From assembly GCA_902577875.1 (NCBI GenBank), contig CACHAX010000007.1:1-53428 (forward strand): a stretch of DNA of 53,428 bases, in the 5' to 3' direction. Below are positions 4,547 to 35,212 of the stretch, in pieces. This DNA is from an uncultured Pelagibacteraceae bacterium (GTDB lineage: Bacteria > Pseudomonadota > Alphaproteobacteria > Pelagibacterales > Pelagibacteraceae). Below the pieces are notes generated by a model. It worked only from the letters and a program-made list of their open reading frames with translations. It made no database searches and was not told where the DNA came from. Position 1 is the stretch's first letter. Each line of letters begins with the position of its first letter. The position numbers were made by a program, and so were the translations under genes.

Positions 4547-5878
4547 TTAAAAACCTAAACTTTTACCCATTATTTTGTCAGGTAGCCAAGTTACAATCTC
4601 AGGAAAAATGCATAAAATAAGTATAGCTAAAGCCATAATTATCATAAATGGTATAGATCCCTTTAAAATTTCTGACAAACTAACATCTGGTGTTATACCT
4701 TTAATTATATAAAGGTTTAATCCAACAGGTGGAGTAATAAGACCAATTTCCATATTAATTGTAAATACAATTGCAAACCAGTAAGGATCAAATCCCAGTT
4801 GAGTTATAACTGGCAATAATATTGCTGAGGTCATAACAATCACAGCAACTGGAGGTAAAAAGAACCCTGCAATTAACAGAAATATATTTATTAAAATAAA
4901 CACTACCCATTTATTAGAGCTCATCTCCACCATGCTTTGAGCTAATGATTGAGTTACGTAAAGTTGTGATAATGTAAACGCAAAAAGATAAGAAGCTGCG
5001 ATGATAAACATTATCATCACACTTTCTTTCATGGAAACTTTAACAATGTTCCATATTTTTTTTGGCTGATAAATTTTGTAGACCACAGCAATCAAAACAA
5101 ATACTAAAAAAGCTCCAACTCCTGAAGCTTCTGATGGAGTAGCAACACCACCATATAAAACATATAAAACTCCAGCAATGATTGCCAAGAAAGGAAGTAT
5201 CCTTGGCAGAACTTCAATTTTTTCTTTGAAAGTTGGAGGTGTTCTATTCTTTAGAGCTTTAGCTGAGTCTTTATCAATAAAGTAACTGTGTATCAGTGCC
5301 CAGATAGCGAACATACCTGCAAGCATAAATCCAGGTATCAACCCGCTTAAAAATAATCTTCCAATTGATGTTCCAGTTGCAATTCCATATACAATTAAAA
5401 CAATACTTGGAGGAATTAATACTCCTAAAGTTCCACCAGCTGCTATAGTTCCTGTTGCAATTTGATCTGAATATCCTCTTTTTCTCATTTCAGGAATTCC
5501 CATAGTACCAATTGCAGCACAGGTTGCGGGACTTGATCCACTTAATGCAGCAAAGATTGAACAAGCTCCTATATTAGAAATAACTAAACCTCCAGGTACT
5601 CTCCATAGCCATCTATCCAATCCTGTATATAAATCTTTTCCTGCTGGAGAATTTGCAACTGCCATCCCCATTAATATAAACATTGGTATTGAGAGAAGAA
5701 CAAATGAATTTAAGCCTGCATAGAAAGTTTCAGCAAAAACATCTAACATTTGAAAACCTTCAAAAGCAACTAAAAGAGCGATTGATACAAAGCTTAAACC
5801 AAAAGCAATTGGTATACCGGAAAATAATACTATCAAAGTAAAAACAGCAACGATTATTGCAATTATTAATGGATCCAT
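4547..5878 (-). CDS. TRAP transporter large permease (DctM-type)
   Basis: Large membrane subunit of a tripartite ATP-independent periplasmic transporter, using an ion gradient to import the solute delivered by the binding protein. It is 443 aa with about 12-13 hydrophobic segments. DctM-family blocks include SIPMFILMGMAVANS, CSIFAALSGSSPATCAAIG and GTLGVLIPPSIVLIVYG, and the C-terminal IGLITPPVGLNLYIIKG. The start codon shares one base with the stop of the small permease (position 5878), so the two are translationally coupled. The substrate is inferred only from neighbours (malonyl-CoA decarboxylase, CoA-transferase): a dicarboxylate such as malonate is plausible but unproven. Confidence 0.95.
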   Translation of the reverse strand: MDPLIIAIIVAVFTLIVLFSGIPIAFGLSFVSIALLVAFEGFQMLDVFAETFYAGLNSFVLLSIPMFILMGMAVANSPAGKDLYTGLDRWLWRVPGGLVISNIGACSIFAALSGSSPATCAAIGTMGIPEMRKRGYSDQIATGTIAAGGTLGVLIPPSIVLIVYGIATGTSIGRLFLSGLIPGFMLAGMFAIWALIHSYFIDKDSAKALKNRTPPTFKEKIEVLPRILPFLAIIAGVLYVLYGGVATPSEASGVGAFLVFVLIAVVYKIYQPKKIWNIVKVSMKESVMIMFIIAASYLFAFTLSQLYVTQSLAQSMVEMSSNKWVVFILINIFLLIAGFFLPPVAVIVMTSAILLPVITQLGFDPYWFAIVFTINMEIGLITPPVGLNLYIIKGITPDVSLSEILKGSIPFMIIMALAILILCIFPEIVTWLPDKIMGKSLGF

Positions 5879-26395: not shown

Positions 26396-27177
26396 ATTAA
26401 ACTTGGAATTATTTTTCTTAAATCCATAGAGAGCTTGGGGTTAATTTTTGAATAAATTATACCCTTTCCTAATTTTTTTAATGCCAAAACTTTCCCATCT
26501 GGAGAAATAATCGTTGTATGACCAAACGTTTCTCTTTTAGGGGTGTTTTTACCAGTTTGAGCTGGTGCAAAAATATAACAAAAATTTTCAATCGCTCTTG
26601 CTCTTAAAAGTGGTAACCAATGTTTTTGTCCCGTAAACTTTGTGAAAGCTGATGGAACCGCTATAAAACTTAAATTTTTTTTTGATAAATTCCTATAAAG
26701 TTCAGGAAACCTCAGATCAAAACAGATTGTAAAACCTATTTTGCCCCAAGGTAAATTGGCAGTGACCAATTTATTTCCTGCTTTAAAAGTTTTACTTTCT
26801 TTATGTTGTTCTTTATTTGGAATTTTAACATCAAACATATTAATTTTATCATAATATTTGACAATTTTTCCATTTGGTCCAACCAGTATAGATCTATTTC
26901 TGAGTTTATTTTTAACTTTAACGCAAATTGATCCGAGTAAAATCCATTTCTTATATTTTTTTGAAACTTCCCTAATTTTCTTCAAAATTGGATCTTTATT
27001 CATTTCATATGAATATTTAAAAAGTGTTTCTCTACTACTAGACATCAAAGAAGAGGTTTCAGGTGTAATAATTAAATCAGATTTATTTTTTATAGCTTGA
27101 TTTACATATTTAAGAATATCTTTAAAATTATCTTTATAATTTTCTCCACTAGATAATTGTATGCAGGCTATTTTCAT
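26392..27177 (-). CDS. Carbon-nitrogen hydrolase (nitrilase superfamily, Nit1-like)
   Basis: Amidase of 261 aa with the Glu-Lys-Cys triad: Glu in ITPETSSL (about 41), Lys in YYDKINMFDV (about 112) and Cys in GFTICFDLRFPELYR (about 152). The tract KHWLPLLRARAIENFCYI and FGHTTIISPDGKVLA is most like Nit1-type deaminated-glutathione amidases, so metabolite repair is a fair guess. Its start overlaps the last ABC permease gene by 4 bases, so it is co-translated with an amino-acid importer, which leaves open an amide substrate brought in by that importer. Confidence 0.9.
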   Translation of the reverse strand: MKIACIQLSSGENYKDNFKDILKYVNQAIKNKSDLIITPETSSLMSSSRETLFKYSYEMNKDPILKKIREVSKKYKKWILLGSICVKVKNKLRNRSILVGPNGKIVKYYDKINMFDVKIPNKEQHKESKTFKAGNKLVTANLPWGKIGFTICFDLRFPELYRNLSKKNLSFIAVPSAFTKFTGQKHWLPLLRARAIENFCYIFAPAQTGKNTPKRETFGHTTIISPDGKVLALKKLGKGIIYSKINPKLSMDLRKIIPSLI

Positions 27178-27851
27178 GTTTGAAATCCATATTTTTTTTC
27201 TAAAAATTTAATAACATTATGAATTATAAAAGTCATAAACAAGTAAATACCTCCTGCCACAATAAATACCTCTACTGGCTTAAACGTTGTTGAAATTATA
27301 TATTTAGCAACACCAGTTAAGTCCATAAGTGTGACTGTGCTTGCTAGAGATGTTCCTTTAAGCATCAAAATAATTTCATTTCCATAAGCTGGTAAAGATT
27401 GTTTTATTGCAATAGGAATTTGTATTTTTGTAAAAATAATTTTTGAAGGTATTCCTAGGCTTCTTCCAGCTTCTAAATATCCAGGTTTTATTGTTTGAAA
27501 AGCTGATCTTAATATTTCTGAAGTATAAGCCCCAGTATTTAATGAAAATGCAATTATCGCACACCAGTATGGTTCTTTTAATACTACCCATAAAATTGTT
27601 GTTCTTAGGTATTCAATTTGACCTAATCCAAAATATATTATGAAGATTTGTACCAATAGAGGTGTTCCTCTAAAAATATATGAGTATCCATAAGCAAATT
27701 TATTAATCAACTTATTATTATTCATTCTCAAGATTGCAAAACCTAATCCAATAAAAAGACCAAGAATTAGAGATACAGATAATAGTTTAAGAGTAATCAA
27801 AGTTGCGTTTAACAACTTAGGAAAACTATTAATCATTAATTCAATATCCAT
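27174..27851 (-). CDS. Polar amino-acid ABC transporter permease (HisM-like)
   Basis: Inner-membrane subunit of a polar amino-acid importer, 225 aa, about five helices. The binding-protein-dependent transport loop reads EAGRSLGIPSKIIFTKIQIP, the EAA motif that docks the ATPase. YIFRGTPLLVQIFIIYFGLG is the typical N-terminal family block. The start shares a base with the stop of the paralogous permease (27851). No ATPase gene follows; an amidase takes that place. Confidence 0.93.
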   Translation of the reverse strand: MDIELMINSFPKLLNATLITLKLLSVSLILGLFIGLGFAILRMNNNKLINKFAYGYSYIFRGTPLLVQIFIIYFGLGQIEYLRTTILWVVLKEPYWCAIIAFSLNTGAYTSEILRSAFQTIKPGYLEAGRSLGIPSKIIFTKIQIPIAIKQSLPAYGNEIILMLKGTSLASTVTLMDLTGVAKYIISTTFKPVEVFIVAGGIYLFMTFIIHNVIKFLEKKYGFQT

Positions 27852-28543
27852 TAATAACCTTTGCTATATTTTGTTTCTAATTTGTTTAACAATTGCATAC
27901 TTAAAAATGTTAGTATTAAGTATAAAACTGCTGCAAACGAGTAAAAAAATAATGGATCTCTAGTTGAGCCAGCCGCAATATAGGATTGTCTCATTATTTC
28001 AACCAAACCCGTTACAGATATAAGAGAAGTATCTTTTAATGTAATTTGCCAAACATTACTTAAGTTTGGAATTGCTAGTCTTAGCATTTGAGGCAAAATT
28101 ATTTTAACGAAGTAAATATATTTATTAAAACCTAAAACTTTAGCAGCTTCGAACTGACCCTTATCAATTGATTGTAGGGCTCCTCTAAATACTTCAGTCG
28201 AGTACGCTCCCGATATTATCCCTATTGAAAATGAACCAGTTAAAAAAGCATTAATTTCGATGTAATCATTATAACCAAATATTGAAGCAACAAACATAAT
28301 TGCTCCACTTCCACCAAAGAAAAATAAATAAATTACTAGTAGCTCAGGTACACCTCTAATAACAGTGGTGTAAGCATTACCAATAGAATTAAGAAATTTG
28401 TTATTAGATAATTTTAATGGAGTAAATAAAGCTGCAAATATAAAGCCTATTATCATTGCGGTTATTGAAACCGCAATTGTCATTAAGGTTGCAAAGAATA
28501 ACTCGTCTCCCCAACCTTTATCACCAAAATATAGAAGTTCCAT
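27851..28543 (-). CDS. Polar amino-acid ABC transporter permease (HisQ-like)
   Basis: Second membrane subunit of the same importer, 230 aa. It contains the EAA loop FEAAKVLGFNKYIYFVKIILP and the family block YTTVIRGVPELLVIYLFFFG, with about five hydrophobic spans. It is paired by a 1-base overlap with the HisM-like gene and separated from the binding-protein gene by a short gap that carries a perfect hairpin. Confidence 0.93.
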   Translation of the reverse strand: MELLYFGDKGWGDELFFATLMTIAVSITAMIIGFIFAALFTPLKLSNNKFLNSIGNAYTTVIRGVPELLVIYLFFFGGSGAIMFVASIFGYNDYIEINAFLTGSFSIGIISGAYSTEVFRGALQSIDKGQFEAAKVLGFNKYIYFVKIILPQMLRLAIPNLSNVWQITLKDTSLISVTGLVEIMRQSYIAAGSTRDPLFFYSFAAVLYLILTFLSMQLLNKLETKYSKGY

Positions 28544-28549
28544 AATATA

Positions 28550-28569
28550 GGTGGCTAATTATAGCCACC
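28550..28569 (-). terminator. Intra-operon hairpin after the binding-protein gene
   Basis: GGTGGCTA and TAGCCACC form a perfect 8-bp stem with a four-base loop between the binding-protein stop and the first permease ATG. No T-run follows, so it more likely acts as an RNA-stability or processing element favouring the binding-protein message than as a full terminator. Confidence 0.6.
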
Positions 28570-28582
28570 CATAAATAATTTA

Positions 28583-29410
28583 TTACATAGAAGCGTCAAA
28601 ACCAAAATGTTTTATAGCAAGCTTACTGATAATACCATCGTCTCTAGCTTTATCAATTGCTGCATTAAAATCATTTAAAAGTTTAGAGTCACCTTTTCTA
28701 ATACCTACGCCAACACCATTACCAAAATCTCCACCTGCAAATGTTGGTCCAGTTAATACAACTCCTTTACCAGATTTTTCTGCATAATCTGTAAAAGCAA
28801 CTGCTGCAGCTAGTGCTGCATCTATTCTACCAGCAGATAAATCCAAGTTAACTTCATCTTGAGTTTTGTAAGTTCTTATTTTTACATTACCCATTAAACC
28901 AGACTCTAGGAAGTTCTGGTGAATTGTTGCAGTTTGTACACCAATGGTTTTACCTTTAAATGCTTTAGTCAAAACATCTAGTGTTGCTTGTTCATCAGCA
29001 CTTACGTCAGATAAATTTATAGCTGACATTGTTTTAAGACCTTCGTTTTTTGATCCTTTCATAACAGCTAATGATGCAACTTCATCAGCATAACCTTGAG
29101 AAAAGTTTATTGTTTTCATTCTCTCACCAGTTATTGACATTCCAGCCATGATGGCATCAAATTTTCTTGAGACTAAAGCTGGTATCATTCCATCCCAGTC
29201 TTGCTCTACAATTGTGCAATCATGATTCATAATTTTGCATAATTCATTTGCTAATTCGACTTCAAAGCCAATCAAATTTCCAGCTGAATCTTTAGAATTC
29301 CAAGGCGGATATGCACCTTCAGTTCCTATTTTAATTTGATCTGCAATTGAAGAAATTGTTAGAAATGATGATATTAAAATACCAAGTCCTAATACTTTTA
29401 ATTTTTTCAT
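28583..29410 (-). CDS. Basic amino-acid ABC transporter substrate-binding protein
   Basis: Periplasmic receptor of 275 aa with signal peptide MKKLKVLGLGILISSFLTIS (cleavage near IA-DQ). It aligns by eye with HisJ/ArgT: IKIGTEGAYPPWNSKD, IGFEVELANELC, FDAIMAGMSITGERMKTINF and DLSAGRIDAALA, with Cys residues in ELCKIMNHDC placed like the HisJ disulfide. A lysine/arginine/ornithine-type ligand is therefore likely. That fits the SpeD-SpeE gene directly upstream, since arginine or ornithine feed polyamine synthesis. GGAGG lies 7 bases before the ATG, a strong ribosome-binding site for this genome. Confidence 0.92.
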   Translation of the reverse strand: MKKLKVLGLGILISSFLTISSIADQIKIGTEGAYPPWNSKDSAGNLIGFEVELANELCKIMNHDCTIVEQDWDGMIPALVSRKFDAIMAGMSITGERMKTINFSQGYADEVASLAVMKGSKNEGLKTMSAINLSDVSADEQATLDVLTKAFKGKTIGVQTATIHQNFLESGLMGNVKIRTYKTQDEVNLDLSAGRIDAALAAAVAFTDYAEKSGKGVVLTGPTFAGGDFGNGVGVGIRKGDSKLLNDFNAAIDKARDDGIISKLAIKHFGFDASM

Positions 29411-29469: not shown

Positions 29470-30510
29470 TTAATGATTTATTGACGAGGAAAAATTCCAA
29501 GAACAATCAAAACTCGGTATATAAACTCTTGAAAGTTTTGTATTTCCAAAATTTTTGTTAAAAACATTTAACCAATTTTCAACTTGTTTTGGTTTTTTGT
29601 CTTGGCTTCCTACTTGAGCAGTAATTACACCTTTGGGTTTTAAAATTCTTTCTAAAGATGACATATTTTTTGCAGCCAAATCTATACAAAATTGATCATC
29701 ATTTAGATCTACAAATATTTGATCATAAGTGTTGTCTTTGACAGATTTAATACTTTCAAAAGCATCTCCCCAAACACATTTAACTGAATTTTTTTCTGTG
29801 GCCTTCTCACCAATTTTACTTAGGTGTTTATCACATACATCCACAACTTCAGGATCTAATTCATACCAATCTATAAAGCCAAAGTTTTGTGAAATGCATT
29901 CTCTTGCAACACCACCGTCACCTCCACCAATAATTGCAGCTTTCTCTTTATTCGAATTCAAATTAAGTCCAGAGTTTACAAAAGTTGAACTATATAAATG
30001 TTCATCACTTTCAGCTACTTGTATTTCATTATCGATAAATAAAGCTTTTCCAAATTGTTCTAAATCAAGTATTTCAATATATTGACCTACTTTAGATTTA
30101 AAATTTTCTAGCACTTTGTTTACGACATATGATTTTTTTAAACCTGGAGAGCTATAATTATCATGATAAAGATCAATAGTATCTCTATTAAATTCTTTAA
30201 TTATGATATTTGTATGTTCCATCTCGTCTTTTATTATATCTAGAGAAACTTTTGGTGATACTTTTCCACATGTAAAAAAATCAAAGCTTACAATTTCTTT
30301 TTCTGGGAAAGTATGAAAACTAATGTGGCTTTCAGCAAGCAAAGCAACCAATGTAAATCCTTGTGGCTCGAATTTATATTTAGAAATTTTTAAAACTGTT
30401 ACTTTTGCTGCTTTAGCAATTTTATAAACTAACTTTTCATAAAATTCGGGAGTATATTCCTTTTTAGTTCCAACTATATCCAGTGTTATATGTTCCCCAA
30501 CTTTTTCCAT
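29470..30510 (-). CDS. SpeD-SpeE fusion: S-adenosylmethionine decarboxylase-like and aminopropyltransferase-like domains
   Basis: A 346 aa two-domain polyamine enzyme. Residues 1-115 are a pyruvoyl decarboxylase of the bacterial SpeD type: self-cleavage site Glu60-Ser61 in LLAESHISFHTFPE, with His66 and Cys81 (FFTCG) in place. Residues 118-346 are a spermidine-synthase Rossmann fold with the nucleotide loop IIGGGDGGVARE (195-200), the acidic strand end WYELDPEVVDV and catalytic-region Asp residues in YDQIFVDLNDD. The usual YHE of spermidine synthases is YSS here (SDEHLYSS) and the usual DP after the second Asp is DD, so the amine acceptor may be atypical. Some SpeD homologues decarboxylate arginine or ornithine, so the first domain's substrate is not certain. 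Confidence 0.88.
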   Translation of the reverse strand: MEKVGEHITLDIVGTKKEYTPEFYEKLVYKIAKAAKVTVLKISKYKFEPQGFTLVALLAESHISFHTFPEKEIVSFDFFTCGKVSPKVSLDIIKDEMEHTNIIIKEFNRDTIDLYHDNYSSPGLKKSYVVNKVLENFKSKVGQYIEILDLEQFGKALFIDNEIQVAESDEHLYSSTFVNSGLNLNSNKEKAAIIGGGDGGVARECISQNFGFIDWYELDPEVVDVCDKHLSKIGEKATEKNSVKCVWGDAFESIKSVKDNTYDQIFVDLNDDQFCIDLAAKNMSSLERILKPKGVITAQVGSQDKKPKQVENWLNVFNKNFGNTKLSRVYIPSFDCSWNFSSSINH

Positions 30511-30574
30511 AAGAATCTAATATATATCTTTTTTAACTAACGAAATTTTTTACTTCTTTCAAACAAAAAACTAT

Positions 30575-30599
30575 TATAATAATTTATCGAGGATAAACA
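30575..30599 (+). promoter_or_regulatory. -10 element and ribosome-binding site of the aldolase/SDR gene
   Basis: A perfect TATAAT (30575-30580) and GAGGA (30589-30593), six bases before the TTG start, fix the start of the aldolase/SDR gene. No good -35 box is visible at the expected distance. Confidence 0.6.
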
Positions 30600-32633
30600 T
30601 TGAAAAACAATTGGTCAGAAAACGAAGCTAAAAAATATATTAAAAAGTATAAGAAATTAGGTCATTCTGAAGATATGGCTTTAAGAGTTTATACAACCAG
30701 GCTTCTAGGAAGAAATCCAGAATTGGTCTTGCATGGTGGTGGCAATACTTCAGTTAAAACCAAAATTAAAGATATAGATGGTAAATATTACGATGTCCTT
30801 TGCGTAAAAGGCAGCGGATGGGATATGGCTGAAATTGAACCAGCAGGTTTACCAGCTGTTAAATTAAATCCATTGCTAACTATGAAAAAAAAGAAAACTC
30901 TCTCTGATGATGACATGGTTGCTTTTCAAAAAAAAAATTTAATAGATACAAAATCTCCCAATCCATCAGTTGAAACTTTTTTACACGCATTTTTACCGTT
31001 TAAATTTGTTGATCACACTCATTCTGATGCAATTATGAAAATCACTAATAGACCAAATGGAGAAATCTTATCAAAAAAAATATTTGGTAAAAAAACTGCA
31101 ATAGTGCCATATGTAATGCCAGGATTTAAATTAGCACAAAAAATAAATGAAGTTTATTCTAAAAATCCAAATATAAATTGTTTGATTTTATTAAACCACG
31201 GCATTTTCACATTTGCTGATAATGCAAAAGATGCTTACGGTTTAATGATAAAGTATATATCTGATGCTGAAAAAACTTTAACCAAACTAAAAAAGAAAAA
31301 AATAAAACAGATAAAGAAAACTAAATTTAATTTCTCAACTGCAGATATAGCTCCTATATTGAGAGGTCTTTTATCTGAAAAAAATGATAACAAATTTATC
31401 TTAAATTTTAAAAAAAATAGTAAGTTAGATTATTTTATTAATGGTAAAGATATAAATAGATACTCAAATGAAGGTACAGCTACCCCTGATCATGTTATAA
31501 GAGTTAAACCATTTCCTTTAGTAATATCACCAAAAGTAAACTGTACTTTAGATGAATTTAAAAATTTAGCTGAAAAAAAATTCAAAGAATATCGAAAAAA
31601 ATATAAAAATTATTTTGAAGCCAATAAGAAAAAAACTAAAGAAAAAAAAGTAATGCTTGATACGTCTCCTAGAGTAATTCTAATTCAGAATTTTGGTTTA
31701 TTTACAGTAGGAGATACCTTAAAAGCTGCAAAGATTGCAGGAGATTTAACTCAAACAAATGCCAATGTAATTTCAAGTGTTGAAGAGACGTCCAGATATA
31801 AATTCTTATCAAAAAAAGACTTATTTGATGTCGAGTATTGGTCCTTAGAACAAGCAAAATTGAACAAAGCAAAAAAAGAATTGCAAGGCAACGTTGTTGT
31901 TATCACTGGTAGCACTGGTGAAATTGGTATAGCAACTTATAAATTATTTAAAAAATATGGAGCTGAGGTTGTTTTGCTTGATATTAATAAAAGTAAGATA
32001 AATGATTTAAAGAATAAAATAAGCGATCTTTGTATTCAATGTGATGTAACTGACAAACAAAGTGTAAAAAAAGCATTTAGTAAAATTTTGGAAATATACG
32101 GAGGTGTAGATATTTTAATATCTAATGCAGGTACTGCTATAGGTGGATCAATTGCAGAAGTTAATGATGAAATACTTCGGAAAAGTTTTGAAGATAATTT
32201 TTTCTCACATCAAAATTGTGCTTCAGAGGCTGTAAAAATTATGAAAAAACAAAATATAAATGGATGTTTGTTATTTAATATATCTAAGCAATCAGTTAAT
32301 CCTGGTAAAAATTTTGGACCATATGGATTGCCTAAGTCTGCGCTTTTAAATTTGTGTAAACAATATGCAGTTGATTATGGACACCTTGGTATTAGATCAA
32401 ATGGTGTTAATGCTGATAGAATTAGAAGTGGTTTATTAAATGATAAAATGATTAAACAAAGAGCAAAGGCAAGAGAAGTAACCACGGATCAATATATGAG
32501 TGGTAATCTACTATTAAGCGAAGTTAAAGCAGATGATGTGGCCAAAGCTTTTTATCATCTTGCAATATCAAAAAAATCAACTGGAGCAGTATTAACCGTA
32601 GACGGTGGAAATATTGCAGCTTCTTTAAGATAA
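30600..32633 (+). CDS. Bifunctional class II aldolase/short-chain dehydrogenase (RhaD-like fusion)
   Basis: A 677 aa fusion starting at TTG, preceded by GAGGA. The N-terminal two-thirds is a class II (zinc) aldolase: Glu125 in PSVETFLHAF, zinc ligands His139 and His141 in DHTHSDAI, His200 in LLNHGIFTF, and the phosphate-binding GGGNTSVK near residue 46. The C-terminal third is a classical SDR: TGSTGEIG near residue 435, SNAG, and the catalytic pair Tyr575/Lys579 in YGLPK. Homologues include rhamnulose-1-phosphate aldolase/lactaldehyde dehydrogenase fusions, but no rhamnose gene is present. It lies between speDE and mtnA-mtnP-apt, and MtnA makes methylthioribulose-1-phosphate, a substrate for class II aldolases in the DHAP shunt. 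I infer that this aldolase may cleave it and the SDR may process the aldehyde. Confidence 0.9.
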   Translation: MKNNWSENEAKKYIKKYKKLGHSEDMALRVYTTRLLGRNPELVLHGGGNTSVKTKIKDIDGKYYDVLCVKGSGWDMAEIEPAGLPAVKLNPLLTMKKKKTLSDDDMVAFQKKNLIDTKSPNPSVETFLHAFLPFKFVDHTHSDAIMKITNRPNGEILSKKIFGKKTAIVPYVMPGFKLAQKINEVYSKNPNINCLILLNHGIFTFADNAKDAYGLMIKYISDAEKTLTKLKKKKIKQIKKTKFNFSTADIAPILRGLLSEKNDNKFILNFKKNSKLDYFINGKDINRYSNEGTATPDHVIRVKPFPLVISPKVNCTLDEFKNLAEKKFKEYRKKYKNYFEANKKKTKEKKVMLDTSPRVILIQNFGLFTVGDTLKAAKIAGDLTQTNANVISSVEETSRYKFLSKKDLFDVEYWSLEQAKLNKAKKELQGNVVVITGSTGEIGIATYKLFKKYGAEVVLLDINKSKINDLKNKISDLCIQCDVTDKQSVKKAFSKILEIYGGVDILISNAGTAIGGSIAEVNDEILRKSFEDNFFSHQNCASEAVKIMKKQNINGCLLFNISKQSVNPGKNFGPYGLPKSALLNLCKQYAVDYGHLGIRSNGVNADRIRSGLLNDKMIKQRAKAREVTTDQYMSGNLLLSEVKADDVAKAFYHLAISKKSTGAVLTVDGGNIAASLR

Positions 32634-33710
32634 TTAATTAAATAACTTTTTTAAGCCCTCAGAAGAAGCATCACAAATTCCTTTTTCTGTTATTAATGCA
32701 GTAACATATTTAGCAGGTGTTACATCAAAGGCTAAATTTAATGATTTGCTTTTTTTAGGATAAATTAAAACTTTATCAACTTTATTATCTTTGTTAATTC
32801 CATCTACATGAGAAAGTTCTTTTGGATCTCTTTCTTCTATTGGAATATCTTTAGAGTTTTTTAAATTCCAATCTATAGTTGAACTTGGTAAAGCAACATA
32901 AAAAGGTACCTTATTATCGTGAGCTGCAAGAGCTTTTAAATATGTACCGATTTTATTGCACACATCTCCGTTAGATAATGTCCTATCTGTTCCAACAATA
33001 CACATATCGACCTGTCCTCTTTGCATTAATATTCCACCTGTATTATCTGCTATAATTGTATTTGGAATTTCTTCTTCATTAAGTTCATATGATGTAAGGT
33101 TTGCCCCTTGATTTCTTGGTCTAGTTTCATCTACCCAAACATGTATTGGTATTCCTTTTTTATGCGCATGATAAATAGGAGAAGTTGCTGTTCCCCAATC
33201 TATTGTAGCTAACCAACCTGCATTACAATGTGTGAGAATATTTACGGTATCTTTCTTTTTATTATATATATCTTCAATAATATTTAATCCATTTTTACCA
33301 ATACTTTCACAAAATCCCTCATCTTCTTTACAAATTTCTTTGGCTTCATTGAGCACAACATTAAATAAATCTTCCGGCTCAACAAATGACAACTTGTTAT
33401 TCATTCTATGAACTGCCCACTGAAGATTTATAGCCGTAGGCCTAGAAGCAACTAATTCTTCCGAACTTTTTTTTATAAAATCTAAACTATTATTTTCTTT
33501 TACAGCTAGAACTAATCCAAATGCAGCTGTGCCTCCGATTAATGGAGCACCTCGAACTTCCATTGTTTTGATAGCATTTATGGCATCTTTAACTGAATTT
33601 AATTCTTTTATTATAAATTTATGTGGAAGCTTTGTCTGATCTATAATTTTTACAACTTGTTTTTCTTCATCGAACCAAATTGTTTTATATTTAATACCAT
33701 TAATTTTCAT
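32634..33710 (-). CDS. mtnA: S-methyl-5-thioribose-1-phosphate isomerase
   Basis: Converts 5-methylthioribose-1-phosphate to methylthioribulose-1-phosphate in methylthioadenosine salvage. The 358 aa protein has EVRGAPLIGGTAAFG near the N-terminus, the catalytic Cys in ILTHCNAGWLATIDWGTA, and the catalytic Asp in VGTDRTLSNGDVCNKIGTY, which separates it from eIF2B-type relatives. The C-terminus FDVTPAKYVTALITEKG is typical. Its start shares a base with the mtnP stop, and its stop directly abuts the convergent aldolase/SDR stop. Confidence 0.95.
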   Translation of the reverse strand: MKINGIKYKTIWFDEEKQVVKIIDQTKLPHKFIIKELNSVKDAINAIKTMEVRGAPLIGGTAAFGLVLAVKENNSLDFIKKSSEELVASRPTAINLQWAVHRMNNKLSFVEPEDLFNVVLNEAKEICKEDEGFCESIGKNGLNIIEDIYNKKKDTVNILTHCNAGWLATIDWGTATSPIYHAHKKGIPIHVWVDETRPRNQGANLTSYELNEEEIPNTIIADNTGGILMQRGQVDMCIVGTDRTLSNGDVCNKIGTYLKALAAHDNKVPFYVALPSSTIDWNLKNSKDIPIEERDPKELSHVDGINKDNKVDKVLIYPKKSKSLNLAFDVTPAKYVTALITEKGICDASSEGLKKLFN

Positions 33711-34579
33711 TAAGTAAGAACTCTTCCTGCAATTGTTTTTAATTTATCTTTAGTTTTTTGAGTTCTTTTTTCTGGAGCGGTAATTATTGCTACATCTAAA
33801 CAATTATTAGTTGGATCATTTGGATCAATGTGATTTTCAAAGTTCTCTATCAGATTTTTAATCATATTTTTAGCTTTTGCTGCATTATCTAAAAGTACTT
33901 TTACAACTTGTTGAACATCTACATTTTCATGATCTGGATGCCAACAATCATAATCTGTTACCATCGATACTGAAGCATATCTGATTTCAGCTTCTCTTGC
34001 TAGCTTAGCTTCTGGCATATTTGTCATTCCAATAACATCTGCTTTCCAAGATCTATATAGATTTGACTCTGCTAATGTAGAGAATTGTGGGCCTTCCATT
34101 ACAACATAAGTTCCACCTCTTTGATAAGGTATATTTTCTTTTTTAATGGCATCTTCGCAAGCACTCATCAGCCCACTTGAAGTTGGATGCGCCATTGATA
34201 CATGCGCAACAATTTCATCATCAAAAAAAGATTTGTTTCTTGCAAAAGTTCTATCAATGAACTGATCAACGATAACAAATTTACCTGGAGGTAGATCTTC
34301 TTTTAGAGATCCTACAGCTGAAACAGAAACTATGTCAGTAATACCAAGTTGCTTAAGTGCATCAATATTTGCTCTAAAATTTATTTTTGATGGAGAAATA
34401 AAATGACCTTTTCCGTGTCTTGGTAAAAAATAAATTTCTTTATTATTGTATTTAGCTTTTAATATTAAATCTGAGGGTTTTCCCCATGGAGTATTTAAAT
34501 CTAAAGTTTCTCTATCTTTAAACTCTTCAACGTCATATAAGCCGCTTCCACCAATAATTGCTAATTTATTATTTGCCAT
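33710..34579 (-). CDS. mtnP: S-methyl-5'-thioadenosine phosphorylase
   Basis: Splits methylthioadenosine with phosphate into adenine and methylthioribose-1-phosphate. The 289 aa protein has the trimeric purine phosphorylase pattern: AIIGGSGLYDVEEF, LPRHGKGHFISPS, VSAVGSLKEDLPPGKF and the base-binding VVMEGPQFSTLAESNLYR, then IGMTNMPEAKLAREAEI and VTDYDCWH. It diverges from apt with 28 bases between starts, so adenine is released next to the enzyme gene that would recycle it. Confidence 0.95.
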   Translation of the reverse strand: MANNKLAIIGGSGLYDVEEFKDRETLDLNTPWGKPSDLILKAKYNNKEIYFLPRHGKGHFISPSKINFRANIDALKQLGITDIVSVSAVGSLKEDLPPGKFVIVDQFIDRTFARNKSFFDDEIVAHVSMAHPTSSGLMSACEDAIKKENIPYQRGGTYVVMEGPQFSTLAESNLYRSWKADVIGMTNMPEAKLAREAEIRYASVSMVTDYDCWHPDHENVDVQQVVKVLLDNAAKAKNMIKNLIENFENHIDPNDPTNNCLDVAIITAPEKRTQKTKDKLKTIAGRVLT

Positions 34580-34607
34580 AAAATTATTTTGATTATATTT
34601 AAGATTT

Positions 34608-35135
34608 ATGGATTTAAAAGAATATATTAGATCAATTCAAGACTATCCTAAAAAGGGAATTCTTTTCAGAGATATAACAACACTTATTAAAAATGAAAAA
34701 GCTTTCAAAAAATGTATAGATCAAATTGTTGAAAGATCCAAAAAGTTCCAATTTGATAAAATAGCAGCTGTAGAATCTAGAGGTTTTGTATTTGCTTCTG
34801 CTATCTCATACATCTTAGATAAGCCATTTATAATGTTAAGAAAAAAAAATAAACTACCTGCTGAGGTACATTCTGTTGATTTTGAACTAGAATATGGAAC
34901 AGCTACAATTGAAGTTCACAAAGACTCGTTTAATAAAAACGATAATGTATTAATTATTGATGACTTAATTGCAACAGGAGGTACTGCTGAAGCTGCAGCT
35001 AAACTAATAGAAATATCAAAAAGTAATGTTGCGGGATTTATATTTGTAATTAATTTATTTGACCTTAAAGGTACTGATAATCTTTTAAAAAAAGGTTATA
35101 AAGTGGAAAATCTTTTGGATTTTCCAGGTCATTGA
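34608..35135 (+). CDS. apt: Adenine phosphoribosyltransferase
   Basis: Makes AMP from adenine and PRPP. The 175 aa length and pattern are canonical: DYPKKGILFRDITTL at the N-terminus, AVESRGFVFAS, LRKKNKLPAEV (hood/flexible loop) and the PRPP motif VLIIDDLIATGGTAEAA. It is divergent from mtnP. Its stop codon directly abuts the encoded CCA end of the tRNA on the other strand (35136). Confidence 0.95.
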   Translation: MDLKEYIRSIQDYPKKGILFRDITTLIKNEKAFKKCIDQIVERSKKFQFDKIAAVESRGFVFASAISYILDKPFIMLRKKNKLPAEVHSVDFELEYGTATIEVHKDSFNKNDNVLIIDDLIATGGTAEAAAKLIEISKSNVAGFIFVINLFDLKGTDNLLKKGYKVENLLDFPGH

Positions 35136-35212
35136 TGGTAGCGGGAAGTGGGATCGAACCACTGACCTCGGGCTTATGAGTCCCGCGCTCTAACCAACTG
35201 AGCTACCCCGCC
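35136..35212 (-). tRNA. tRNA with CAU anticodon, probably elongator tRNA-Met
   Basis: A 77-base cloverleaf with 3' CCA encoded. The acceptor arm is GGCGGGG against TCCCGCT with G-U pairs at both ends, then discriminator A. The D arm is GCTC-AGTTGGTTA-GAGC, the anticodon loop is CTCATAA (CAU), and the T loop is TTCGATC with stem AGTGG/CCACT. The initiator is unlikely, as position 1 pairs with 72 and the anticodon stem lacks the three-GC pattern. tRNA-Ile with lysidine-modified CAU is the main alternative. The anticodon stem's loop-closing pair is A·G. Confidence 0.93.

Follow-up and report, generated by a model that had tools for sequence, protein, structure and literature searches.

An Aldolase–Short-Chain Dehydrogenase Fusion as a Candidate Methylthioribulose-1-Phosphate Aldolase in SAR11 and Other Alphaproteobacteria

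We analyzed a 53,428-nucleotide stretch (hereafter the window; contig CACHAX010000007.1 of assembly GCA_902577875.1) from an uncultured SAR11 bacterium of the Pelagibacteraceae, in which a gene for a class II aldolase fused to a short-chain dehydrogenase/reductase (SDR) lies among genes of polyamine synthesis and 5'-methylthioadenosine (MTA) salvage. Judged from sequence, the fusion very probably supplies the aldolase step and the next redox step of a dihydroxyacetone phosphate (DHAP) shunt. This proposal draws on gene content, catalytic residues, a conserved slot in the island, the mutual exclusion of two kinds of aldolase in that slot, and linkage to mtnA by both mtnP and mtnK routes, all of which can be read from the genomes compared. 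An earlier note, made from the letters of the window, had put the fusion forward as a candidate methylthioribulose-1-phosphate aldolase, and the exchange of enzymes in the slot, the mtnA linkage, and the lack of MtnC and MtnD matches over cut-off argue for that candidacy. Our searches of the open-licence PMC literature linked no aldolase–SDR fusion to mtn genes, MTA, or 5-deoxyribose metabolism and brought up nothing on mtnA of SAR11 or the aldolase that goes with it; within that literature, neither the mtn-linked fusion branch nor the repeated swapping of fusion and single aldolase in SAR11 appears to have been described.

The Aldolase Slot in the SAR11 Island

The island (29470-35135) consists of the following genes.

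29470-30510, minus strand: speD-speE (speDE), S-adenosylmethionine decarboxylase and aminopropyltransferase in one fused open reading frame of 346 amino acids, assigned to the MTA-releasing step (TIGR03330 92.8 bits, cut-off 75.65; Pfam Spermine_synth)
30600-32633, plus strand: aldolase–SDR fusion, 677 amino acids (NF006192 906 bits, cut-off 639)
32634-33710, minus strand: mtnA, methylthioribose-1-phosphate isomerase (TIGR00512 414.9 bits, cut-off 279)
33710-34579, minus strand: mtnP, MTA phosphorylase (NF006492 445.1 bits, cut-off 437; TIGR01694 308.1 bits, cut-off 274.85)
34608-35135, plus strand: apt, adenine phosphoribosyltransferase (TIGR01090 203.9 bits, cut-off 185.85)

The open reading frames and the family models agree with these five genes as the earlier note had called them, speD and speE forming one protein. 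Its matches to the NCBIfam spermidine synthase models were below cut-off, and SpeE of SAR11 has been described as a gene-fusion protein (PMC8437039). The aldolase–SDR fusion starts at a TTG codon with a GAGGA site immediately upstream, and 12 relatives align from residue 1. No mtnB, mtnC, or mtnD was found in the island, in line with what had been noticed earlier for the genes after mtnA. The window was placed in SAR11 by its fusion, whose closest counterparts, in named single-cell genomes of Pelagibacteraceae, reach 98% identity. In the window genome assembly (939,742 bases, 48 contigs, completeness 66.7%), the fusion was the single Aldolase_II match, and three genomes with 96-97% completeness and fusions 97-98% identical (G052, G058, and G068) likewise had one Aldolase_II match each. 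Because the window genome is incomplete, statements of absence rest on its relatives.

We addressed the use of the slot in a sample of 117 Pelagibacterales genomes, which contained the full-length fusion in 13, mtnA in 55, and Aldolase_II in 101. The 55 mtnA-bearing genomes carried either a single-domain aldolase (42) or the fusion (13), never both and never neither. Single-domain aldolases lay within 5 kb of mtnA in 41 cases and at 9 kb in one, and 12 of the 13 fusions lay within about 1.5 kb, that of G088 being at 9 kb. The fusion is thus not the usual SAR11 solution, as the single-domain aldolase fills the slot in 42 of the 55 genomes. Among the loci read (20 with a single aldolase, 12 with a fusion, and the window), those of family f1 showed the order apt-mtnP-mtnA-X-speDE, with X being either aldolase and with inserts at times; whichever aldolase occupied X, the same ABC transporter was found past speDE in most f1 loci (25 of 30). 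In family f2, two long loci showed apt-mtnP-mtnA-fusion without speDE, and the third locus was a short contig. Between X and mtnA, G074 and G088 carried nine gene clusters in identical order, and X alone differed. This nine-gene block, present in an aldolase genome and a fusion genome (L118 and L097) and including one protein like the 3-keto-5-aminohexanoate cleavage enzyme, hints that the junction between slot and mtnA takes up inserts. In a tree built from the mtnA of 50 of these genomes (of the remaining five, G070, G100, and G114 were cut short, and G072 and G099 were not fetched), the aldolase state changed 8 times, and at least 6 of these changes were forced by well-supported branches.

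Model scores were obtained for four of the 20 single aldolases, giving 191-212 bits on the two best fuculose-phosphate aldolase models (cut-offs 264, not reached), 66-76 bits on the mtnB model TIGR03328 (cut-off 137), and 163-180 bits on a haloarchaeal ribulose-1-phosphate aldolase model (cut-off 300). One compared with the PDB matched E. coli FucA at 160 bits and, lower, 6btd at 135 bits. By these scores, the single slot aldolase is FucA-like rather than MtnB-like. The chain 6btd (with 6btg) is an aldolase of 5'-deoxyadenosine disposal in Bacillus thuringiensis, named DrdA, to which the single-domain slot aldolase is akin; unlike the fusion, it has no SDR and belongs to another family. That two unlike aldolases alternate in one slot is strong evidence, at the level of gene comparison, that they do the same job, and the conservation of the slot together with their mutual exclusion indicates that the island is not a chance arrangement. 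In a separate contig scan of 80 loci, the 57 Pelagibacteraceae loci included mtnA or mtnP in 47 and speDE within 1 kb in 53.

In genome-wide searches, ARD (MtnD) exceeded its cut-off in none of the 117 Pelagibacterales genomes, with one weak match, and MtnC did so in none of the 13 fusion genomes, with five weak matches; among 14 control genomes, ARD passed in 2 and MtnC in 1. For the fusion, TIGR03328 did not appear among the 25 top-scoring families, of 220. The earlier note had let its reading depend on mtnBCD being absent elsewhere in the genome and on the linkage to mtn genes being conserved; neither MtnC (13 genomes searched) nor MtnD (117 genomes searched) turned up over cut-off, and the linkage is kept in SAR11 and, as described below, well beyond.

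Linkage to mtn Genes beyond SAR11

Among 289 Alphaproteobacteria, NF006192 passed its cut-off in 50 genomes, and mtnA was matched in 133, of which 126 were over cut-off. mtnA was present in 47 of the 50 fusion genomes versus 82 of the 239 others (Fisher p 7e-16, a value that overstates independence because the sampled genomes are related); four genomes with weak mtnA-like matches (G230, G290, G320, and G385) were counted as lacking mtnA, and their inclusion gives 86 instead of 82. The fusion lay within 2.5 kb of mtnA in 28 of the 50 genomes. We read the gene neighborhoods of the window and of 29 loci among the 50, the latter being 20 chosen as mtnA-adjacent, 8 chosen as nonadjacent, and G146. 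The 20 mtnA-adjacent loci also held mtnP in 11 and an adjoining gene for cytochrome c1 of the bc1 complex in 8, with Rieske-cytochrome b-cytochrome c1-mtnP-apt-mtnA-fusion as the fullest order, and SAR11-like speDE in none. In the contig scan, mtnA or mtnP was found in 16 of the 23 non-Pelagibacteraceae loci.

A different arrangement was observed on plasmids of Pararhizobium, Shinella, and Ensifer (3 of 15 matches listed, picked because they are annotated; a fourth record, from Tistrella, is unannotated), in all three of which the fusion is found with a sugar-binding regulator, a sugar ABC transporter, mtnK, and mtnA. A VapBC-type toxin-antitoxin pair lies just behind the fusion gene in Shinella (L275, 8062-8720), and the antitoxin also occurs in Pararhizobium (L274). 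The cluster of mtnK, mtnA, sugar ABC transporter, and fusion was also present in all three genomes fetched, of eight, in one further genus, and all three of them also encode another fusion, whose 421-444 bits fall where the rhamnose type scores. Of the 13 genomes over the cut-off in the search that gave these three, six were fetched, of which three showed mtnK-mtnA, one (L285) was cut short, and two (L286 and L287) had no mtn gene in the fetched loci. From the mtnP-linked and mtnK-linked clusters, we concluded that the fusion accompanies mtnA whether the feed is MtnP or MtnK, and we infer that the MtnP feed is the cell's own MTA and the MtnK feed an imported sugar. Since named strains (Tistrella mobilis, with mtnP-mtnA-fusion, and Ensifer, with the mtnK cluster) carry the fusion gene adjoining mtn genes, its role can be tested genetically. 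Outside the class, a metagenome-assembled genome (MAG) labeled Gammaproteobacteria (L176) showed the order fusion-mtnA-mtnP-apt; its fusion is 64% identical to that of the window and sister to the Pelagibacteraceae clade, which either transfer or misbinning would explain.

Domain Structure and Relation to RhaEW

The fusion passes the curated cut-off of NCBIfam NF006192 (PRK08324.1-6), which is named only "bifunctional aldolase/short-chain dehydrogenase." Its 677 residues form three domains, versus about 210-220 residues for the single-domain Ald2/FucA-type aldolases.

30600-31295, plus strand: class II aldolase domain, residues 1-232 (Pfam Aldolase_II at 31-217), with ligand codons at 30972-30974 (Glu125), 31014-31016 (His139), 31020-31022 (His141), and 31197-31199 (His200)
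31296-31877, plus strand: middle domain, residues 233-426, modeled with the fold of a class II aldolase, as a second and degenerate copy
31878-32630, plus strand: classical SDR domain, residues 427-677 (Pfam adh_short at 431-613 and adh_short_C2 at 442-670)

The four aldolase ligands, together with Asn533, Ser562, Tyr575, and Lys579 of the SDR domain, were invariant in 13 of 13 sequences (the fusion and 12 relatives), which bears out the claim of the earlier note that the ligands and the SDR Tyr/Lys pair are intact. The SDR domain also has Asp461 after the second strand; since SDRs with an Asp at this place commonly use NAD(H), the residue suggests NAD(H) as the cofactor. The AlphaFold2 model of the whole fusion (38 sequences) had a mean pLDDT of 85.1 and a pTM of 0.86, with pLDDT below 50 at residues 38-47, 73-82, and 565-576, the last of which adjoins the catalytic Tyr. 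The nearest solved chain to the aldolase domain was 3m4r (6.7e-48), an aldolase domain at the N terminus of a protein from Thermoplasma, which Foldseek matched as well (TMt 0.87). The SDR domain matched classical SDRs both in VIA-align (Z about 28-29) and in Foldseek; SDR matches took up the entire VIA-align list of the full-length model, which is hence uninformative on the other parts. The middle domain, modeled alone with pLDDT 85.7, had L-fuculose-1-phosphate aldolase 2opi as its top Foldseek match (E 1.1e-4, TMq 0.57, 12% identity), and from this fold match the modeled fusion looks like a working and a degenerate aldolase in tandem, followed by an SDR. Profile comparison did not support an internal aldolase duplication (hhalign probability 2%; Pfam E 0.03 only). 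By analogy to class II aldolases that form tetramers, the second aldolase copy may act as a built-in subunit partner.

The earlier note did not know the covalent attachment of aldolase and SDR to be described, but the layout is known from RhaEW (YuxG), assayed as an L-rhamnulose-1-phosphate aldolase and NAD-dependent L-lactaldehyde dehydrogenase (PMC3870299). According to the same paper, Asp replaces the catalytic Glu of RhaE, RhaW oxidizes lactaldehyde to lactate with NAD, and RhaEW without NAD+ gave neither DHAP nor lactate, which the authors read as SDR activity being essential for the aldolase. RhaEW orthologues are also stated there to be always in rha loci, and the mtn-linked fusion branch falls outside this statement. 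Both proteins are class II aldolases fused to SDRs and, if our assignment is correct, both would cleave a ketose-1-phosphate to DHAP and an aldehyde before an SDR step; the fusion is 29.5-31.5% identical to nine sampled rha-locus proteins. These nine RhaEW-like fusions share their neighborhood with a rhamnose-isomerase cluster (recognized by the TIGR02629 model in L254, 671 bits, and by sequence similarity in the other eight), whereas the window fusion has mtn neighbors and scored 440.7 bits on the RhaD_aldol-ADH model TIGR02632, below its cut-off of 567.75.

We compared the two kinds in a fusion set of 80 rows, with 22 of the 23 non-Pelagibacteraceae and 5 of the 57 Pelagibacteraceae loci of the contig scan; alignment A2 held 38 rows, and A3 held 31 of those 38. 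The tree, which was of a quick kind, midpoint-rooted, and flagged for long branches and odd letter make-up, separated the nine RhaEW-like rows (support 100) from 69 NF006192-type rows (support 99) with long joining branches. Positions 125 and 533 were Asp and Leu in 9 of 9 rha-type rows and Glu and Asn in 69 of 69 NF006192-type rows, and 52 positions, one of them a gap, were fixed differences between 68 and 9 rows. A third group of fusions (L288-L298, 485-590 bits on NF006192), found within the phylum but not in the class, shares Glu125 and Asn533 and differs elsewhere in the SDR domain, with Asn564 and Pro605; the 11 loci read had no mtnA, mtnP, mtnK, or rhamnose isomerase neighbors, and apt was found in one. 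As Glu125 and Asn533 are shared with groups lacking mtn linkage, they are not specific marks, and residues alone do not fix the substrate; their candidacy as substrate marks is weakened accordingly. Second aldolase–SDR fusions in two genomes (L255, 5677-7632, and L260; G309 and G401) scored 453 and 437 bits, adjoined a PRK02399 protein and another Aldolase_II gene, and stood far from the mtn and rha clades.

Proposed Reactions and Competing Explanations

In the route that we propose, SpeDE would make spermidine and release MTA, MtnP would split MTA into 5-methylthioribose-1-phosphate and adenine, which Apt would recycle, and MtnA would isomerize the sugar to 5-methylthioribulose-1-phosphate. 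The N-terminal metal-dependent aldolase, with its His triad and Glu125, would then yield DHAP and 2-(methylthio)acetaldehyde, which the C-terminal SDR would convert with NAD(H); the acid is a likelier product than the alcohol, by comparison with the action of RhaW on lactaldehyde. The route is probably also fed by 5'-deoxyadenosine, by way of 5-deoxyribulose-1-phosphate, giving DHAP and acetaldehyde. The substrate, the direction of the SDR step, and the fate of the methylthio group are inferred. On the analogy with RhaW, oxidation is somewhat the better supported direction, only modestly so because the SDR tetrad differs from that of RhaW, and reduction retains a sizeable, smaller share. In four loci (L242, L245, L246, and L247; in L246 at 4661-5512, minus strand), a Glyoxalase_3-domain protein adjoins the fusion and could have the aldehyde, or the compound formed from it, as substrate.

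DHAP shunts are known to serve MTA and 5'-deoxyadenosine alike (PMC10986504), and in the published accounts, Ald2 cleaves methylthioribulose-1-phosphate to DHAP and methylthioacetaldehyde, which a putative separate alcohol dehydrogenase reduces to methylthioethanol (PMC5893883, PMC10986504). Like the Ald2 shunts of R. rubrum, R. palustris, and E. coli ATCC 25922, the system described here combines MtnP or MtnK, MtnA, and a class II aldolase encoded alongside, with MtnC and MtnD below cut-off; unlike them, it has its oxidoreductase fused and an aldolase of another subfamily. We tentatively propose, as a combined reading that is less probable than its alternatives taken together, a widespread alphaproteobacterial MTA branch in which a three-part enzyme cleaves 5-methylthioribulose-1-phosphate and oxidizes methylthioacetaldehyde internally to methylthioacetate, so that the aldehyde is not released. 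If so, the product would differ from the methylthioethanol of known DHAP shunts, and the exchange of enzymes among SAR11 lineages would alter the sulfur compound made from polyamine waste.

The assignment would give a concrete step to a family present in 50 of the 289 sampled Alphaproteobacteria and would complete a route from polyamine waste to DHAP in SAR11, where MtnD was not found. The genomes also show a single position at which two dissimilar aldolases repeatedly replace one another. The assignment further raises the questions of what sulfur product is made by these ocean bacteria, which are sulfur-needy, and whether the fusion shields the cell against methylthioacetaldehyde.

The nearest competitor keeps the same aldolase step but takes 5-deoxyribulose-1-phosphate from 5'-deoxyadenosine, a waste product of radical SAM enzymes, as the main substrate and MTA as secondary, and we give it a real, clearly lesser chance. 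Both compounds would be handled by MtnP, MtnA, and the aldolase, the products then being DHAP and acetaldehyde, and shunts are known for both (PMC10986504); SAR11 f2 fusions occur with mtnA-mtnP-apt and no speDE (two of two loci long enough), and the 20 mtnA-adjacent loci of other Alphaproteobacteria yielded no SAR11-like speDE either. The polyamine source is favored by the proximity of speDE in 53 of the 57 Pelagibacteraceae loci, beside both aldolase kinds. A ribulose-1-phosphate aldolase of nucleoside catabolism, in which a broad phosphorylase and MtnA would deliver ribulose-1-phosphate for cleavage to DHAP and glycolaldehyde and the SDR would form glycolate, is improbable. The score of the single slot aldolase on the haloarchaeal model and the argument for a broad MTA phosphorylase in marine cyanobacteria (PMC11698098) speak for it, but the models whose cut-offs MtnA and MtnP exceed bear MTA-pathway names, speDE adjoins, and the annotated mtnK of the rhizobial clusters points to a 5-substituted ribose.

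A RhaEW-type enzyme acting on L-rhamnulose-1-phosphate would have the identical domain layout and a sizeable TIGR02632 match, but the missed cut-off of that model, the separate clade, and Glu125/Asn533 in place of the Asp/Leu of all nine RhaEW-like proteins stand against it, as do genomes holding an NF006192-type fusion plus a second one in the rha-type score range. The earlier note had remarked on the lack of isomerase and kinase neighbors. The rhamnose isomerases TIGR02629 and RhaA (PF06134) were found in none of the 13 fusion genomes (of the 14 controls, none passed TIGR02629 and 3 passed RhaA), and a rhamnose isomerase query found none in the 80 loci of the contig scan, in which rhamnulokinase was not searched. 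By clade, residues, model score, and the absence of two kinds of isomerase, we ruled this explanation out, leaving it a very slight residual chance. We dismissed with equal firmness an MtnB-like dehydratase in methionine salvage with unrecognized replacements of MtnC and MtnD: MtnB is a class II aldolase homologue with the same fold and presumably the same substrate, and MtnA and MtnP are present, but this dehydratase needs MtnC and MtnD, neither of them over cut-off here (MtnC in 13 genomes searched, MtnD in 117), and the other occupant of the slot scored far closer to fuculose-phosphate aldolases than to TIGR03328.

Several observations weigh against the assignment of the fusion to the DHAP shunt. 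The window genome is incomplete, and recombination of mtnA could make its tree overcount the swaps. The 42 of 55 SAR11 genomes with an aldolase lacking an SDR imply that the fused step is not indispensable, and Glu125 and Asn533 are also found in the third group and in two fusions classed as "OTHER" without mtn neighbors. In Alphaproteobacteria, no mtnA lies within 2.5 kb of 22 of the 50 fusions, two of which (L268 and L271) have mtnP close by, and the fetched stretch was without mtnA or mtnP in 7 of the 23 non-Pelagibacteraceae and 10 of the 57 Pelagibacteraceae loci. The whole genomes of those 17 loci contained mtnA in 16 (15 over cut-off, that of G682 being a short fragment of 40 bits), and it was absent from G690, the MAG of L200, in a whole-genome search. 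G227 and G400 carry the fusion with no mtnA match, and G146 has the fusion without mtnA. The G146 fusion (L265, 5674-7704) is of the NF006192 type with 789 bits and is surrounded by genes for an FGGY kinase, a UgpC-like ABC ATPase, a binding protein, and G3P-dehydrogenase-like proteins; here this enzyme may have been recruited to a different phospho-sugar.

At the flanks of the island, a riboswitch search of the window with Rfam at gathering scores returned tRNA only. A tRNA gene (35139-35212, minus strand; RF00005, 62.6 bits) lies four bases past apt at the edge of the island, and beyond apt, relatives differ in gene content, as at a tRNA insertion site. On the other side, speDE is adjoined by a polar amino-acid type ABC transporter (27174-29410, minus strand) with a binding protein and two permeases; the top model of the binding protein was lysine/arginine/ornithine, below cut-off, and the transported substrate could be linked to polyamine metabolism.

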